From: Bacteroidota bacterium | GTDB taxonomy: Bacteria > Bacteroidota > Ignavibacteria > Palsa-1295 | DNA: 46,465 nt | Direction of reading: 5' to 3' | Assembly: GCA_030706745.1 (NCBI GenBank) | Contig: JAUZNX010000021.1 | Coordinates: 1-46,465, forward strand | Program-made: the position numbers and the translations under genes | The notes under the pieces: model-generated | Databases searched by the model: none | The model's input: only the letters and a program-made list of their open reading frames with translations | What the model was told of the DNA's origin: nothing | Shown: positions 1,503-34,187 of the stretch, piece after piece | Layout: the number at the start of each line of letters is the position of its first letter | Numbering within the stretch: position 1 is the stretch's first letter

Positions 1503-3137
1503 CTACTGCGCTTCGCCCCGCAGGAAATCCTCGATGCCACGGACGTGGGCCTCGGCGAGTTCATTCAGGAAATTCGGATCGCGGAGAGCTTGCTCCTGAT
1601 CGGGGAACATGAGGTAGAGCGATTCGGTCAGCACGCAGGGCATCCAGGTCGGGCGGCAAATGGCAAGGCTCTTCTGCATCGCGCCAAGATTCGGAATGCC
1701 CGTCACCTCGGCAATCTCGCGATCGAGTGCCCATGCCAACCCAGCCGATTGGGGATGATAATAGAATGTTGACGTCCCGTAGTTCAGGAAAGGATTCGTC
1801 CCATCGGGGAAAGCATTGTTGTGGACGCTGATCATCAGATCGACATCCTCGCTCACAGCAAGCGCAGCACGCGCATCCAGCTCTTCGACTTGATTGACGT
1901 CGCTGACCATCCCGCTGAGTGTCGAGTGGGTCATCAGGACTTGCGCACCCTTCTTTGTGAGCAAATCGTGCAGTCGCGTTGCCTCCGCAAGATTCGCTTC
2001 GCGCTCGGTGAGTCCCGTTGGACCAATTGCGCCGCCCGGCGGATGTCCGGGATCGATCATGATGCGAAGCCCGCGCAATGGATTGTACCGGTCAAGTTCG
2101 GGTGGCCGGCGCAACCGCAGCACGAGCGAGCCATCATCGAGATAGAACGCTTTGTAACCCCATACCGGCTTTGCGGTCTGGACATCAAAGCCCGCATTGG
2201 TGCCGGTTGTCGAACTGGTCACGGCGAGAATTGCCGGATCGACTTCGGTAAAGATTTGCGATTGGCCTTCGGGCTTGCGATAGATGGTGACGCGAAGATG
2301 ATTGCCTTCGGGCCCATGCGACTCGTTTATCAAAAATGGCGCATGCCCGGCCGGCATGACAATATCGATCCATCCATCGGTGGGACGTATGGCCATCATG
2401 CCCGCCGAAGTGGGAGCAGTGGCATGCAGATCGAGATTGGTATCGGCGACCCAAGCCGTCTCGCGCTCGGAGCCAAGTTCCAGCTTGTAGTACTTGCCCA
2501 TCTTGCCGAGCACACGGAGCGCGGTGCCGCGCGGGAAAAACCACCGGCGATTGCCATCCGGCTCCGGCGCGCCAGGCGCGACATCGCTGCCAGTCTGGAG
2601 TGTATCGCTGCCCCGCACGACCCGCGCCCATACCGGACTTGGATATGCGTCGTAAGCGGTCTTCGCATGCTCCTCCAAACCCGCCGGAGCAGCTTTGGCA
2701 GGACTGTAGCCCAGGTCGAGCGATTGCCGGTCACTACCGCGCTCGGCAACCAGATGATACTGTCCATCATGTGGCATCGGCAGAAACGCGAGGAACGCGC
2801 CGTTCCTGGCAAGCGGCACCTCGACGCCATTGATCGCAAGTGTTGCATTGCCATTGCCCACAGTACCGAAGATGAAATTTGAGTCAACCGCCGGACGCAC
2901 CTGTCCACTCGCGGGATACGCCACGCTGAGATGCAACGGCGCCTCCGGTGCTGGAGCGGGTGGCTGCGGGAGCTTCGTGGCAGTCGGTGGCGGTGGAATG
3001 GGGGAAGGCCGAGTGGTCGTCGTCTTGCGGGAGGGCGCGCAGCCAATCAAAAATAGGAAATATGAAGCATGAAATATGAAGAGGGCACGAATGGCAATGC
3101 GCGATGCGCTGGATCGACGGTCCTTATCATATTTCAT
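1503..3137 (-). CDS. N-acetylmuramoyl-L-alanine amidase (Amidase_3) lipoprotein
   Basis: 544 residues. It hydrolyses the amide bond between N-acetylmuramic acid and the peptide stem. The signal peptide ends in FLIGC (Cys33), so it is a lipoprotein. A Pro/Thr-rich linker follows (about 36-65), then a middle part with an SH3-like segment (about 195-235), then the Amidase_3 domain from residue 357. Zinc ligands fit His365 in DPGH, a Glu in TEREAN (about 378-380) and His439 in SVHNN; the catalytic Glu is Glu505 in LTES. It is last in an operon with an ABC-2 exporter (22-base gap). Oddity: the start codon and the signal-peptide core both lie in the arms of a heptad inverted repeat (3056-3156), and no Shine-Dalgarno is visible. 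The amidase assignment is secure; its physiological role is not. Confidence 0.9.
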   Translation of the reverse strand: MKYDKDRRSSASRIAIRALFIFHASYFLFLIGCAPSRKTTTTRPSPIPPPPTATKLPQPPAPAPEAPLHLSVAYPASGQVRPAVDSNFIFGTVGNGNATLAINGVEVPLARNGAFLAFLPMPHDGQYHLVAERGSDRQSLDLGYSPAKAAPAGLEEHAKTAYDAYPSPVWARVVRGSDTLQTGSDVAPGAPEPDGNRRWFFPRGTALRVLGKMGKYYKLELGSERETAWVADTNLDLHATAPTSAGMMAIRPTDGWIDIVMPAGHAPFLINESHGPEGNHLRVTIYRKPEGQSQIFTEVDPAILAVTSSTTGTNAGFDVQTAKPVWGYKAFYLDDGSLVLRLRRPPELDRYNPLRGLRIMIDPGHPPGGAIGPTGLTEREANLAEATRLHDLLTKKGAQVLMTHSTLSGMVSDVNQVEELDARAALAVSEDVDLMISVHNNAFPDGTNPFLNYGTSTFYYHPQSAGLAWALDREIAEVTGIPNLGAMQKSLAICRPTWMPCVLTESLYLMFPDQEQALRDPNFLNELAEAHVRGIEDFLRGEAQ

Positions 3138-3156
3138 ACTTCGTGTTTCAAATTTG
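3056..3156. repeat. Heptad-periodic inverted repeat, copy 1
   Basis: The left arm (3056-3082) is built of 7-base words with TGAANNN spacing (TGAAGCA, TGAAATA). The right arm (3123-3156) is the complementary type, ATTTCAT then ACTTCGT. A 16-base core of the arms pairs with one mismatch. The arms enclose about 40 bases. The right arm contains the ATG of the amidase gene (read on the minus strand) and the left arm encodes the hydrophobic core of its signal peptide (IFHASYF). Confidence 0.7.
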
Positions 3157-3158
3157 TG

Positions 3159-4076
3159 TCAGAATCCCGTCGTCTTATCGATCATGCCGCGCGCTTTGGC
3201 GAGCCGCTCAATGGTTTGGTAGAAAAAGTACGCGAACGTGGCACTAAGGATACCACTCACCAGCAAGATCATCGCGAGCGTTGCGTTCGAATACGATGCC
3301 AGTATCGGACTGATCGCGCCCGAGCCATTATCCATCTGCAAGATGCCACCGGTCAGTGCGCGGCGCATGCCTTCGAGCCAGTACGTGACCGGCATGGCAA
3401 GGCTCAGCTTGCGCAACACCGAGGGCAGAATATCCGGCGGGAAATAAACCGAGCAAACGAGCAGCAACATTCCAGCAAGGATCTCGCCGATGAACTCGCC
3501 ATTGCGCGGTACAAGCAGGGCGAGCCCCGCAATGATGATGCCGAACGAAATCAGCACGATCATGCCAAGCGGGAAATACACGGCGAGCCATGCCCACTGC
3601 ACGCTCCCAAAGCTCAAATGCAGACCAAGCAAAAGCGACCCAACGACGAGCAGGAAGAGGCAGGTCATGATGCCGATCAGCATTCTCGCCGTGGCGCGGC
3701 CGATCAGATACCAGTAGAGGCTGATCGGCGCGGTGTAAATGTATTTCAAGGTGCGGTAATGCTCGCGGTCTTCCAGGATTGTCCAGGACATATTCGCGAT
3801 CGCCTGCATCGCGATGAGGTAGAGGGCGTTCGAAATGTATATATAATCGAAGAACCCGCCGCGTTGCGGTCCCGCGATAACGACATACATCAGGAGCAGC
3901 ACGAGTGCTGTCGAAATCGGTCGCATCACCGCATAGATAAAGAAGACCAGCGGATCGGCCCAATTGCTCTCGACCTTCCAACCAAGCCAAGCAGCGACGC
4001 GATACGTCCGCCAGCGAGCATCTATCGTGGAGGAATTGGAGCCAAGAGATGTAAGAGACGTCTCGCTCATTGCCAC
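3159..4076 (-). CDS. ABC-2 type transporter permease
   Basis: 305 residues with a hydrophilic N-terminus, then about six membrane segments: around residues 42-65 (FFIYAVMRPISTALVLLLMY), 82-97, 120-148, 155-185, 190-215 and 270-290. This is the ABC-2 permease fold used for export of polysaccharides, drugs or lipids. The start overlaps the end of the preceding permease by 10 bases. With that permease and the ATPase it forms a heterodimeric exporter of the inner membrane. The substrate cannot be read from the sequence; the amidase lipoprotein downstream suggests an envelope-related role. Confidence 0.85.
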   Translation of the reverse strand: MAMSETSLTSLGSNSSTIDARWRTYRVAAWLGWKVESNWADPLVFFIYAVMRPISTALVLLLMYVVIAGPQRGGFFDYIYISNALYLIAMQAIANMSWTILEDREHYRTLKYIYTAPISLYWYLIGRATARMLIGIMTCLFLLVVGSLLLGLHLSFGSVQWAWLAVYFPLGMIVLISFGIIIAGLALLVPRNGEFIGEILAGMLLLVCSVYFPPDILPSVLRKLSLAMPVTYWLEGMRRALTGGILQMDNGSGAISPILASYSNATLAMILLVSGILSATFAYFFYQTIERLAKARGMIDKTTGF

Positions 4077-9126: not shown

Positions 9127-10500
9127 ATGAATCGACGAAGCAGCCTTTTTCTCTTATTTGCAGGTCTTTTGTCAAGTTTCACGCCCGACCTTGTGCTGGG
9201 TCAAGTGGATCTTCTTGCTGGCAAGCACGCAGCAATCGGCAAATCTGCCGATAAGTTGTTTGCGCCAACGCGGGTGTCCGAGCGCCAACTCTTCTCATTT
9301 GACATCGCGCGTACGGTAAAGCTGATGGATGCAACCCCGGATGCATCGCACTGGTATGTCGTCGATGACTTCGCCCACTGGCAGCAGATCACGATTGATA
9401 GCCAACGGGTAGAGCATCCATTCCATGAAATCCCCAAAAGTGGGATTCGGCTGAGTCCAAAAGGGGATTACGTTATTTGGACGGGCTTGATGCGCGGTTT
9501 TACGCATCTGGGCTTCGATTCCACAACGGTGTATCTCTACAAAGACATGGCGCCCATTGGGCACTACGTCGCAGATTTTCCCGCGATTGAATTCTCACGC
9601 AGTGGCGATCGATGGGCAGTGCTGCTCCCCTATGCGTATGAGATGCAGACCGGCGACCGCGATTTTGTGATCGTCGATGGACTGCTCGCGCATAAAGGTG
9701 AGGTGTATCCGCACCAGTTCTCATTCTCGCATGATGAAAAACATTGGGCGTATCGTGCTACCGATGGACTCATCGAGAAGTTGATCACAGATAAATCTGA
9801 CACAAGTATTTTTCTTTACAAGCGAGCGCCAGTCATGAACGGTCAGACTTGGGATGCTAGCATTTGGCGATTCACGCCGGATGTAATCTCGCCCCATGGT
9901 TTCCTCGAAGGGCGTGATTACGATTTTGGTTTCGCACACGTCGCGAAAGAGTATCATACAGCATATTCCTCGCTCGCGGCGGATACGGCGCGTCGCTTCA
10001 TCAATTTCAACGATAAGAACCAAGGTCTATATCGCTGGATTGCCGACGTCCATATTGATGATTCTGGCAATCACATTGCGTATTTCGCGGCCAATCCTGC
10101 AGTGAAGCGGGTAAGCGACAGCGTCAACGATCGCACTGCTGTCCTGGTGTATGATGGTAATGTCTTCGCAGGGCCGCTTCCGGGAGCAGGCAGAATTTTT
10201 CTAAGCCCGAGCGGCAAGCATATTGCCTATACCACAAGTGCGGCCGGTTCTACCTTTTTTATCGATGGAAAGCTCATTGCGCGGACCAGTGAAATCATGG
10301 ATTGCATCTGGTCGCCGGACGAATCTCACGTCGCATTCACCGGGATCGGGGAGCATGGCAAAGCCTTTGTTGTCGCAGGCGGGAAACGGTCGCCCCTCTA
10401 CGAGCGTATCGGACGTATCGGATTCACCGCAGATGGCCGCGCAATTCAATATGTCGGAATTCGCACGAACAAGCTCTTAAAGGTTCGCCAGGCGTTCTAA
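9127..10500 (+). CDS. Exported TolB/WD40-like beta-propeller protein, function unknown
   Basis: 457 residues from ATG 9127, chosen because it gives a clean signal peptide (MNRRSSLFLLFAGLLSS, cleavage probably after VLG). A TTG at 9097 with AGGAG just upstream is an alternative start but would put ten residues before the Met. The body consists of about seven blades whose turns read SPKGDYV, SRSGDRW, SHDEKHW, DDSGNHI, SPSGKHI, SPDESHV and TADGRAI, the PD40-type pattern. It probably acts in the periplasm or outside the cell, perhaps binding partners. No catalytic motif is seen. The next gene starts 3 bases after the stop. Confidence 0.75.
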   Translation: MNRRSSLFLLFAGLLSSFTPDLVLGQVDLLAGKHAAIGKSADKLFAPTRVSERQLFSFDIARTVKLMDATPDASHWYVVDDFAHWQQITIDSQRVEHPFHEIPKSGIRLSPKGDYVIWTGLMRGFTHLGFDSTTVYLYKDMAPIGHYVADFPAIEFSRSGDRWAVLLPYAYEMQTGDRDFVIVDGLLAHKGEVYPHQFSFSHDEKHWAYRATDGLIEKLITDKSDTSIFLYKRAPVMNGQTWDASIWRFTPDVISPHGFLEGRDYDFGFAHVAKEYHTAYSSLAADTARRFINFNDKNQGLYRWIADVHIDDSGNHIAYFAANPAVKRVSDSVNDRTAVLVYDGNVFAGPLPGAGRIFLSPSGKHIAYTTSAAGSTFFIDGKLIARTSEIMDCIWSPDESHVAFTGIGEHGKAFVVAGGKRSPLYERIGRIGFTADGRAIQYVGIRTNKLLKVRQAF

Positions 10501-11172: not shown

Positions 11173-12114
11173 TTGAACGTATTAGTAACCGGAGGAGCAG
11201 GCTTCATTGGATCGCACATCGCCGATGCGTTTGTCGAGCGCGGTGATGATGTTGTGGTGCTCGATAATTTGTCGGCAGGATCGTTGAACAATATTAATCC
11301 CCGCGCGCATTTTGTGCAAGGAGACATTACCGATGCCCAACTTGTCCGGCGGCTCTTCCGCGAGCATCGGTTCGAGATCGTGAATCATCACGCCGCGCAG
11401 CTCGATGTCCGCAAAAGCGTTGCCGATCCCGTCTTTGATTGCACCCAAAACATCATTGGGACACTGAATCTGCTCGAAGCCGCGCGCATCGAGGGCGGAG
11501 TAAAGCGATTTATGCAGGCTTCCACGGGCGGTGCCGTCTACGGCGAGCAGGACTATTTTCCGGCGGACGAGCAGCATCCGACGCGGCCAATCTCGCAGTA
11601 CGGTGTCGCCAAGCGGAGTATCGAATTGTATCTTGGCTGCTATCAAGCACTTTATGGGATTGAATACGTCGCATTTCGTTATACGAATGTCTATGGCCCG
11701 CGCCAGAGCCCAAATGGCGAGGCCGGCGTTGTTGCGATCTTTACCGAGAAGCTTCTGAGCGGTGAGGAGGCGATCATCAATGGAGATGGCTCGCAGACGC
11801 GGGACTACGTCTTTGTGGGTGATGTGGTGCGTGCGCACATGTTGGCGTTAGATCAACTCCGAGGATCGGACATCCTCAACGTTTCCACTGCCACGGAAAC
11901 CGATGTAAATCAGGTGTACGCCAACCTCTCCGAACTGACGACGGGTGGCCGGGCGAAGCCGCAACATGGTCCTGCAAAAGCAGGGGAACAGCAACGGAGT
12001 GTTTGCTCGTATGAGCACGCTCATGCAGTCCTCGGCTGGGAGCCGCAAGTGAGTTTGCTCGACGGGCTTCGAGAGACCGTAGCGTTTTTCGAGCGTAAGC
12101 ACGTCACTAAATGA
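11173..12114 (+). CDS. NAD-dependent nucleotide-sugar epimerase (GalE-like, extended SDR)
   Basis: 313 residues from TTG at 11173, supported by AAGGAG at 11161-11166. The Rossmann motif GGAGFIG is at residues 7-13; the catalytic Ser/Thr lies in ASTGG (about 117) and the YxxxK pair is Tyr143/Lys147 in SQYGVAK. The length and the segment YTNVYGPRQSP fit UDP-glucose/UDP-N-acetylglucosamine 4-epimerases of the short GalE type, acting in the cytoplasm for cell-surface sugar synthesis. Exact substrate cannot be fixed; the only glycan-type neighbour is the distant gmhA. Its last four bases overlap the open frame of the next gene. Confidence 0.9.
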   Translation: MNVLVTGGAGFIGSHIADAFVERGDDVVVLDNLSAGSLNNINPRAHFVQGDITDAQLVRRLFREHRFEIVNHHAAQLDVRKSVADPVFDCTQNIIGTLNLLEAARIEGGVKRFMQASTGGAVYGEQDYFPADEQHPTRPISQYGVAKRSIELYLGCYQALYGIEYVAFRYTNVYGPRQSPNGEAGVVAIFTEKLLSGEEAIINGDGSQTRDYVFVGDVVRAHMLALDQLRGSDILNVSTATETDVNQVYANLSELTTGGRAKPQHGPAKAGEQQRSVCSYEHAHAVLGWEPQVSLLDGLRETVAFFERKHVTK

Positions 12115-12219
12115 CAAATGATCTTTCCCGTGTCGTCGCGCAGAATCCTTTGGAAATGCAAATGATTTCTCTTCGTTCGATTGCACTCGTCATTTATCAT
12201 TTGTCATTCGTCGTTCTTA
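12102..12219. repeat. Heptad-periodic inverted repeat, copy 2
   Basis: The left arm (12102-12122) overlaps the epimerase stop; the right arm (12186-12219) consists of 7-base words such as TTTATCA and TTTGTCA. A perfect 13-base pairing joins 12110-12122 with 12196-12208, enclosing 73 bases. The enclosed segment carries the start of the next lipoprotein gene, and the right arm encodes the hydrophobic core of its signal peptide (VIYHLSFVV). Confidence 0.75.
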
Positions 12220-13907
12220 TCGCGAGTTGCGCTTCGCAGCAACCGCCGCCCGGCGGACCTGCGGATACTACGCGACCGAAAATCGACACGACAATGCCGC
12301 ACAATCGTCAGTTGAACGTGCCTCGGGATACGCGAATCTATTTCCGGTTTGATCGCGATGTCGATCGCGCTTCGTTCGCACAGGCATTCTCGATTCAGCC
12401 ATATCTGACCGGTCAGGTAACATACCATTGGTCGGGGCATGATGAGGTCACGGTTAAACTTCCAGAGAAGCTCCGCGACTCCACAACTTACACAGTGCAA
12501 CTCTCACGCGACCTGAAGTCGCAGCGAGGAAATAATCTGGCATTCCCGATACGGATCACTTTCTCCACGGGTCCTTTTATTGACACAGGTACACTTTCAG
12601 GTTTTTTACTCAATCCGATCTCCGGCCCATCGCCGAAGGCAAGTGAGGTATTCATATTTTCCTATGATATATCCACGCGCAATGCCGACACGCTTAATGT
12701 GTCTCACACCATGCCGGATCTTTTGACGCAGCCGAACGATCAGGGTATCTGGCAACTGCTGTCCATGAAGGTCGGCCATCGCTATCGTGTCTTTGCAGTA
12801 GAAGATGTCTATCGCAATCATTTATATGACGCGGGGGTAGATGCATTTGGAGTACCGACAGGGGATGCTATTCTCGATAGTGTGGCAAAAGGGAAGTTCT
12901 ATATTCGCATGGCGCCCGCAAGTGACACCATCCGGCCGGAACTGCTGGATGCTGAGGCCCTCGATTCCTTTCACATTCGCGCTCATTTTTCGGAGGCAAT
13001 TGATAGCAATGACGTAATAGCCTCAAACTTCACGCTGAATGGCAAACCACTTGCAGCGGCATATCGTGAGAGTCCCGACAAGAAGCCCGGACAAATTACA
13101 TTGCTGACAACTTCACCGCTTGCGGTGAATCAGGACGATAGTGTGGCAGTCAGGAAAGGAAGCATTCACGATCTTTCCCATAACCCGATCAGCGACTCGG
13201 CATACACGGTGGACTTTACAACCCCTTCGTCTCTCCGGGTGATGCATCCACCAACATTCATTTCTATTGGCATTCGTGATAGTGCGGTCGATCAATCCAC
13301 GATGCCGGTAATTCCAATTATCTTTAGCGATGTCGTTCGCCGGGATTCAATCGAGAGTGCGATTGCGCTTCTTGATAGCGGTAAGCACGCAATGCGCGCA
13401 AGGCTTCACTGGCTCGATGATTCACGAGTCTTGATATCCCCAACCGATAGTCTGCTTCCGAACCTACTCTACATGATCACACTCCGCACGCGTGGTATTC
13501 TGAGTCCGATTGCAGCCATTTCAGGACCGGTACGGGATACACTTTTTCGATGGCGATTTCGAACTATTCGAACGGGCGATCTCGCAAAACTCTCCGGTAA
13601 GATCGCGATTGAGGATTCGTTCTTCACTCAGAATCCCGCAGGCGCTCTCATCGTGCAGGCAATCAATACCAGTTCAAACGAATTGCGGCAGATTGCGCTG
13701 AAGCATGGTGAGCTTGAGTTTGTCTTTGAAGGCATGCGCGAAGCGACCTATCGGGTGCGCGCATTCTTCTCGCGCACCGGCGATCCGATATATGACGCCG
13801 GTTCGGTGCTGCCGTGGCGCTTCGGAGTCCCGACTGGTGATTATCCGCAGCTTGTCTCAGCACGAATGCGTTGGACCACAAAAAACATTGATTTTGAAGT
13901 GCGGTGA
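12162..13907 (+). CDS. Big_5 / Ig-like domain lipoprotein
   Basis: 581 residues from ATG 12162; ATG 12156 and ATG 12111 are in frame, but this one gives a compact signal peptide with lipobox LIASC (Cys23). The mature start CASQQPPPGGPADTTRP is a recurring opening of Bacteroidota/Chlorobiota lipoproteins with an N-terminal Big_5 (Ig-like) domain: TTRPKIDTTMP..., RFDRDVD, TYTVQLS and ITFSTGP mark the first domain (about 30-140). Further Ig-like repeats follow (VRAHFSEAIDS, IPIIFSDVV), then a C-terminal carboxypeptidase-regulatory-like module. Probably anchored in the outer membrane; function in adhesion or scaffolding is inference. Its N-terminus is partly encoded by a heptad inverted repeat. 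Confidence 0.8.
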   Translation: MISLRSIALVIYHLSFVVLIASCASQQPPPGGPADTTRPKIDTTMPHNRQLNVPRDTRIYFRFDRDVDRASFAQAFSIQPYLTGQVTYHWSGHDEVTVKLPEKLRDSTTYTVQLSRDLKSQRGNNLAFPIRITFSTGPFIDTGTLSGFLLNPISGPSPKASEVFIFSYDISTRNADTLNVSHTMPDLLTQPNDQGIWQLLSMKVGHRYRVFAVEDVYRNHLYDAGVDAFGVPTGDAILDSVAKGKFYIRMAPASDTIRPELLDAEALDSFHIRAHFSEAIDSNDVIASNFTLNGKPLAAAYRESPDKKPGQITLLTTSPLAVNQDDSVAVRKGSIHDLSHNPISDSAYTVDFTTPSSLRVMHPPTFISIGIRDSAVDQSTMPVIPIIFSDVVRRDSIESAIALLDSGKHAMRARLHWLDDSRVLISPTDSLLPNLLYMITLRTRGILSPIAAISGPVRDTLFRWRFRTIRTGDLAKLSGKIAIEDSFFTQNPAGALIVQAINTSSNELRQIALKHGELEFVFEGMREATYRVRAFFSRTGDPIYDAGSVLPWRFGVPTGDYPQLVSARMRWTTKNIDFEVR

Positions 13908-30243: not shown

Positions 30244-30246
30244 CTG

Positions 30247-30336
30247 GTTACGTGTAACGAATAACGGGTAACGAGCCGTTAATGACGGCTCGTTGTTCAG
30301 CGCCTCGTTACTCGTTACGCAATCACTCGTTACTCT
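30247..30336. repeat. Heptad-periodic inverted repeat, copy 4, with central perfect hairpin
   Basis: It fills the iscA-hscB spacer. The left arm (30247-30275) has words such as GTAACGA and ATAACGG, the right arm (about 30289-30336) words such as ACTCGTT. In the middle a perfect 10-base stem (30270-30279 with 30285-30294, loop TAATG) is formed. It would make a stable RNA structure in the operon mRNA, without a T-tract. Confidence 0.75.
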
Positions 30337-34101: not shown

Positions 34102-34109
34102 AATTATGG

Positions 34110-34187
34110 TGAATGAAGAATGATGAATGATGAAAGAAGAACCTCTTCTGGATCATTGTTCATCATTCATCATTCACATTTCAACAC
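34110..34187. repeat. Heptad-periodic inverted repeat, copy 5 (best copy)
   Basis: It fills the sod-fdx spacer. The left arm (34110-34137) has words TGAATGA and AGAATGA; the right arm (34153-34187) has TCATCAT twice, flanked by related words. A perfect 17-base stem pairs 34118-34134 with 34159-34175, and the loop contains a further 6-base hairpin (AGAAGA / TCTTCT). No T-run follows. It ends seven bases before the TTG start of fdx, so it could control translation of fdx. Confidence 0.85.

Follow-up and report, generated by a model that had tools for sequence, protein, structure and literature searches.

We found that the genome of an uncultured bacterium of the Candidatus Kapaibacterium group (the source genome, G000) carries convergent pairs of seven-base tandem repeats at its gene junctions, that arms of these elements are read as signal peptides of protein families known to be secreted, and that ordinary signal peptides have been replaced by such elements at orthologous loci, with heptads that differ among congeneric genomes (G001 to G006). 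Of the explanations considered, the best overall is that convergent heptameric repeats were first tolerated, and later used, as signal peptides, and we regard this as probable. The elements show, repeatedly and in nature, a non-coding repeat turned into a necessary protein part, and the different heptads at one orthologous site make the birth and replacement of a signal peptide directly traceable across species.

The element at the epimerase-Big_5 junction

The window, which is the whole 46,465-nucleotide stretch of DNA that was analysed, contains a heptad inverted repeat at 12110-12220, between a NAD-dependent epimerase/dehydratase gene (11173-12114, + strand; PF01370, 1.7e-60) and a Big_5 lipoprotein gene (12111-13907, + strand; PF13205, 1.5e-33). 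The Big_5 protein was matched in 30 of the 31 genomes searched, and the synteny of the two genes is retained across the family. The left, purine arm (12110-12122, + strand; AATGACAAATGAT) has its exact reverse complement within the right-arm array, at 12196-12208. As the original prediction stated, this arm overlaps the stop codon of the epimerase gene (TGA, 12112-12114); it also contains the first ATG in frame with Big_5, at 12111-12113, and the two genes share the four bases ATGA inside it. The unique loop (12123-12184, + strand) has in-frame ATG codons at 12156 and 12162 and encodes a positively charged n-region (ISLRS). It is followed by the right, pyrimidine arm (about 12185-12220, + strand; CTCGTCATTTATCATTTGTCATTCGTCGTT), with the units TCATTTA, TCATTTG, TCATTCG and TCGTT. 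Translation of this arm gives VIYHLSFVV (12189-12215), the h-region of the signal peptide, just ahead of the lipobox LIASC (12216-12230, + strand), which lies nearly all beyond the repeat and has its Cys codon at 12228-12230; the order predicted for the two motifs agrees with these coordinates.

The choice of the true Big_5 start, either ATG 12111 in the left arm or one of the loop codons at 12156 and 12162, is not clear-cut, and starting at either loop codon gives a more typical signal peptide of 23-25 residues. The N-terminus is predicted to be a lipoprotein signal peptide (SPase II), with an R in the n-region, VIYHLSFVVLIASC, and a lipobox Cys that is invariant across the 11-member alignment of Big_5 orthologues.

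A second, unrelated lipoprotein with a like arrangement had been invoked, and this case is also real. The element at 3045-3158 (- strand) encodes the signal peptide of an N-acetylmuramoyl-L-alanine amidase lipoprotein gene (1503-3137, - strand; PF01520, 2.7e-31), with the MKYD start codon in one arm and FIFHASYF in the other, and the peptide written in it is LFIFHASYFLFLIGC. Two further elements of the window are intergenic. One, built from GAATGAT (34104-34185), lies between superoxide dismutase and 2Fe-2S ferredoxin genes, and the other, built from GTAACGA (30246-30317), abuts the upstream stop and ends 22 nt ahead of the next gene.

Replacement at orthologous sites

Congeners G002 to G006 were compared at two loci only, the Big_5 junction and the amidase. 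At the syntenic epimerase-Big_5 junction, heptads are present in five of the seven congeners and differ in sequence: TCATTTG in G000, TCATTCC in G001 (one arm only, peptide FLIPHSSFLI), TTCATAC in both arms in G003 (FLYFILHTSYFILSSC), and AATTACG in G005 and G006 (peptide RNLSFVICFF in G006). Ordinary signal peptides are encoded there in G002, G004 and the other genera. A concatenated-protein tree groups G000 with G001 and G003 with G005 and G006, places the element-free G004 as sister to the second group, and leaves G002 outside both with low support; the Big_5 pattern therefore requires two gains, or one gain plus losses, together with changes of heptad. The amidase element is common to G000 and G001 (RALFIFHASYFLFLIGC and RALFIFHTSYFIFSIGC), with ordinary signal peptides in G002 to G006, and the DUF4249 gene has MLRILGILFVGLTLFDGC in G001 where G000 carries heptads. 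At least three genes (Big_5, amidase and DUF4249) are thus ordinary in element-free congeners and heptad-written otherwise, and about 12 more have a like layout, which bears out the earlier suggestion that these elements can supply new N-termini. Ordinary signal peptides appear to have been replaced by repeat arms.

Among 105 conserved junctions of G000 and G001, which have about 75% protein identity, a script tally gave 2 junctions with an element in both genomes, 8 with one in G000 alone (counting here the junction with the one-armed G001 Big_5 array) and 4 with one in G001 alone, indicating that gain and loss are fast. The amidase element has persisted since the split of these two genomes, and it could be selected for rather than merely tolerated. 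A bolder proposal is that heptad hairpins are actively rewritten in place in this genus, one heptad being swapped wholesale between species while the element and a working signal peptide are kept. We think this unlikely; if true, it would generate gene-start modules that are interchangeable and independent of frame.

Different repeat families also substitute for each other at one junction. A long inverted repeat of longer period (GGATTACACGGATTTAGGCGGATTACG ... CGTAATCCGCCTAAATCCGTGTAATCC) occupies a site in G001 (C3, L141 about 2989-3235) whose orthologue in G000 (C4:114354-114449) is a heptad element. In addition, palindromes of the form CATCCTGAGCGAAG...GAAGGATCTC or GTCATTCCCGC...GCGGGCATGAC were seen in G001 (L176 about 9552-9722 and L167 about 408-606) at junctions that hold heptads in G000.

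The original prediction also held that pairing of the two arms in the mRNA would bury the start codons. The hairpin might then be a translational regulator of secreted-protein genes, in which pairing hides the start, coupling to upstream translation opens it, and signal-peptide coding is secondary. Several genes have their first in-frame ATG, or their only one, within the 5' arm (MKYD, MKYE, MTND), an ATGA overlap is usual in coupled genes, and the computed mRNA fold is strong both at Big_5 in G003 (z -8.2) and at the amidase in G000 and G001 (z -2.5 and -4.0). However, the Big_5 fold is weak in G000 (z -1.9) and absent in G001, G005 and G006, where the signal peptide is kept, the majority of elements are purely intergenic, and an Rfam search at the element matched no family. 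Regulation by the hairpin is accordingly quite unlikely in our judgement. Since the fold is not conserved at Big_5, start-codon burial looks incidental and does not stand as a general rule; the conserved property of this locus is the hydrophobic signal and not the fold. We infer that the elements persist because they are tolerated, and not because the hairpin is selected for.

A class of elements with many heptads

We counted 41-49 period-7 arrays with an inverted partner in 1.65 Mb of G000, against 0-5 for periods 5, 8, 10 and 11, which agrees with the earlier argument against accident; extrapolation from the 1.65 Mb gives ~110 elements for the whole genome. Each element is a convergent pair of heptameric tandem arrays flanking a unique loop, and many heptads coexist, including TCATTNG, TTCATAY, TCCACTA/TCAACTA, TTACTCG, TTCATCC, AGCACTT, TAATTCG and ACCCTAT. 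Purine content is higher in the left (5') arm in 64 of 65 elements, the right arm is open in two or three frames in 51 of 65, and the left arm is closed in all frames in 41 of 65. In 34 of 46 elements, one or both edges fall no more than 12 nt from a gene boundary.

A search of 2 Mb for further copies of the loops gave trivial hits and one composite element but nothing else. The elements are therefore not copies of one another, and copying of whole elements was rejected. Spread driven by a reverse transcriptase was likewise rejected for G000, in which a profile search found no RVT_1. Units such as AATGACA and ATATGAA have no G-tracts and are not of the G-rich, G-quadruplex-capable kind. A Y1 transposase might instead have mobilised the elements as transposon-like copies (MITE or REP/REPIN type), in which case the signal peptides would be insertion fusions. 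Presence and absence do vary among congeners, and all seven genus members have PF01797 Y1_Tnp genes (5-11 each); the search for these genes showed no link to the heptads. The unique loops mean that copies share no whole-element sequence of the MITE or RPE kind, several unrelated heptads occur in one genome, and Y1_Tnp also occurs in sister genera nearly without TCATT heptads (G007), all of which makes such an origin decidedly improbable. Across the phylum, TCATT heptads have a patchy distribution (65 of 296 genomes) in a scan that counts low-complexity repeats too, since the reversed control pattern scores equally high in some genomes.

The closest known systems are the convergent heptameric repeats of Xanthomonas (GGGAATC) and Nostoc (GGGGAYT) (Rehm et al. 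2015, PMC4692102); over-representation of heptanucleotides goes back to Mrazek et al. 2007, as cited in PMC4692102 and PMC4679880. In the excerpts of PMC4692102, those repeats are seven-base units, often in convergent inverted arrays at gene junctions, with the purine strand after the stop and the pyrimidine strand before the start, overlapping stop codons, numerous in the genome and under-represented in coding sequence. Here we likewise found a period-7 excess, purine-first convergent pairs, and proximity to ORF ends in tandem gene pairs (whose share is near background). Unlike those repeats, ours comprise many different heptads in a single genome, most of them not rich in G, and their right arms encode signal peptides, a use that the same excerpts do not report. 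The TAACTGA heptamers of Beggiatoaceae, Cyanobacteria and Bacteroidetes, a proposed regulator site, resemble our elements in lying just upstream of start codons with stops in all three frames, but they are direct repeats, almost never inverted, of one fixed heptamer (PMC4679880).

Repeat-derived coding sequence is known from other systems. In Yersinia, the RU-2 (YPAL) MITE fused to YPO1552 gave one repeat-derived signal peptide (Delihas 2007, PMC2759123, PMC2229807); RU-2 involves few cases and a fixed 168-bp sequence, whereas here ~15 genes of one genome are involved, the loops are unique, and a single orthologous site holds different heptads. Rickettsia palindromic elements are also palindromic and translated in frame, inside conserved genes (Ogata et al. 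2000, reviewed in PMC2229807), but they are homologous copies inside proteins, whereas coding use here is almost confined to signal peptides. The palindromes of nematomorph mitochondria similarly show that inverted repeats are compatible with coding, but they are perfect repeats that lie in conserved regions of mitochondrial proteins, and heptads are not mentioned in the abstract (PMC6649704). In the literature searched, we found no precedent for this combination, in which heptad arms supply many signal peptides and the heptads at a single orthologous site differ.

We also observed heptad elements directly against tRNA genes, between them or flanking both sides (G000 C3:132993-133087 and C3:232809-233195; L055, L060). 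An ACCCTAT/ACCCTAA element, with a plant-telomere-like unit, is retained beside adk in both species (G000 C4:253357-253440, L078; G001 C1:48438-48505, L160).

Arms translated as signal peptides

There is a simple reason why such repeats are usable, namely that a 7-base unit reads alike in every frame. Seven and three have no common factor, so a pure array of an open heptad reads as one seven-residue cycle in all three frames, for example SFVICHL, FILHTSY or SSFILHP. The pyrimidine arm tends to yield a hydrophobic cycle: in hydropathy among open heptads, TCATTTG (SFVICHL) stands at the 95th percentile, TTCATAT (FIFHISY) at the 88th and TCATTCC (SFLIPHS) at the 75th. The purine arm has stops in most frames, with ATGA in several families; TAATTCG and AGCACTT are exceptions, with stops on the right arm.

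Based on the gene starts that touch elements in G000, arms extend into coding sequence at ~15 genes, nearly all of which encode signal peptides. The carriers, whose families were assigned by domain and not from the signal peptide, include LptE, an M48 peptidase, DUF4249 and DUF5683 proteins, an OmpA protein, an M1 peptidase, a VWA protein, the amidase, Big_5, a large Ig/ASH-domain protein and others. Heptad-written N-termini are SRSLHISYFIFHIFLLSGC in LptE, SSHAFVIGHLSFVIPILALTGIVAAC in the M48 peptidase, FYLSFVIRHLSMLLILSGC in DUF4249 of G000 and RRVLFVICHLSFVIASIAHAQ in the OmpA protein. LptE among these is a conserved outer-membrane assembly lipoprotein. In a hand-made table based on simple gene calls, with some start codons uncertain, arms overlap coding sequence in 14 of 17 secreted neighbours versus 0 of 29 cytosolic ones (Fisher about 3e-9). 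We infer that the heptad-written peptides are exported and cleaved.

If start codons were mis-assigned and genes began past the arm, these signal peptides would be only apparent. This does hold for many cytosolic neighbours (gltX, adk, pth, rpsK, trigger factor, UDP-glucose dehydrogenase and others, named by eye from N-terminal sequence), in which the arm frame may be open while the real start follows the arm. Nevertheless, Big_5, the amidase, LptE and DUF4249 are lipoprotein families in relatives or by domain, and without the arm each has too few residues before the Cys for an h-region, so that mis-assignment is very improbable as a general account. That the elements are bidirectional transcription terminators whose arms spill by chance into coding sequence is scarcely credible, for although the hairpins adjoin stop codons, convergent junctions are not enriched (4 of 46 elements versus 15% of junctions), 34 of 46 elements lie at tandem junctions in near-background proportion, orientation in general tracking background, and a terminator scan at the element found no match to an intrinsic terminator.

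Enrichment at lipoprotein starts across the genome, on which the original prediction was to stand or fall, held in part. Elements are slightly enriched there (7 of about 41 adjacent starts versus 7.8% of genes, p = 0.037). Of 99 lipoprotein-like genes, 5 have a heptad array ahead of the lipobox, compared with 7 of the 1091 other starts (p = 0.002); among the control periods, 5, 8 and 11 gave no such array, 10 gave two and 13 gave four. A looser test for a lipobox after an arm was indistinguishable from its nulls (10 of 97 versus 8.1% and 6.8%). Since lipoprotein starts show only a weak rise in element number, the pattern is one of how far arms reach and not of where elements land. What the elements are associated with is signal peptides in general, of both classes, and not lipoproteins in particular.

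Under the tolerance reading that we favour, dispersed heptad hairpins fill gene junctions in this genus, and would grow or land there until they reach sequence protected by selection. Beside a cytosolic gene this limit would be the start codon; beside an exported protein it would be the signal-peptidase site, since an h-region can be made from any run that is hydrophobic and free of stops. With the same cycle in every frame and a hydrophobic pyrimidine arm, in-frame arrival by chance could yield a working signal peptide, and the older one would then be lost. Annotators should be cautious, as repeat-like N-termini can be real.

Several individual loci deserve mention. At G000 C1:373743-374291, - strand (L027:13743-14291), LptE (PF04390, a conserved LPS-assembly lipoprotein) has a signal peptide that comes from a TTCATAY element. 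At G000 C1:44703-46397 (L011, - strand), a lone TCATCCC array with no partner arm gives the lipoprotein signal peptide RFILYPSSLILLFMLGC, and a separate element lies ~100 nt from this array. Finally, period-10 arrays are unexpectedly common within G000 coding sequence, with 123 compared to 13 for period 8 in 1.1 Mb.
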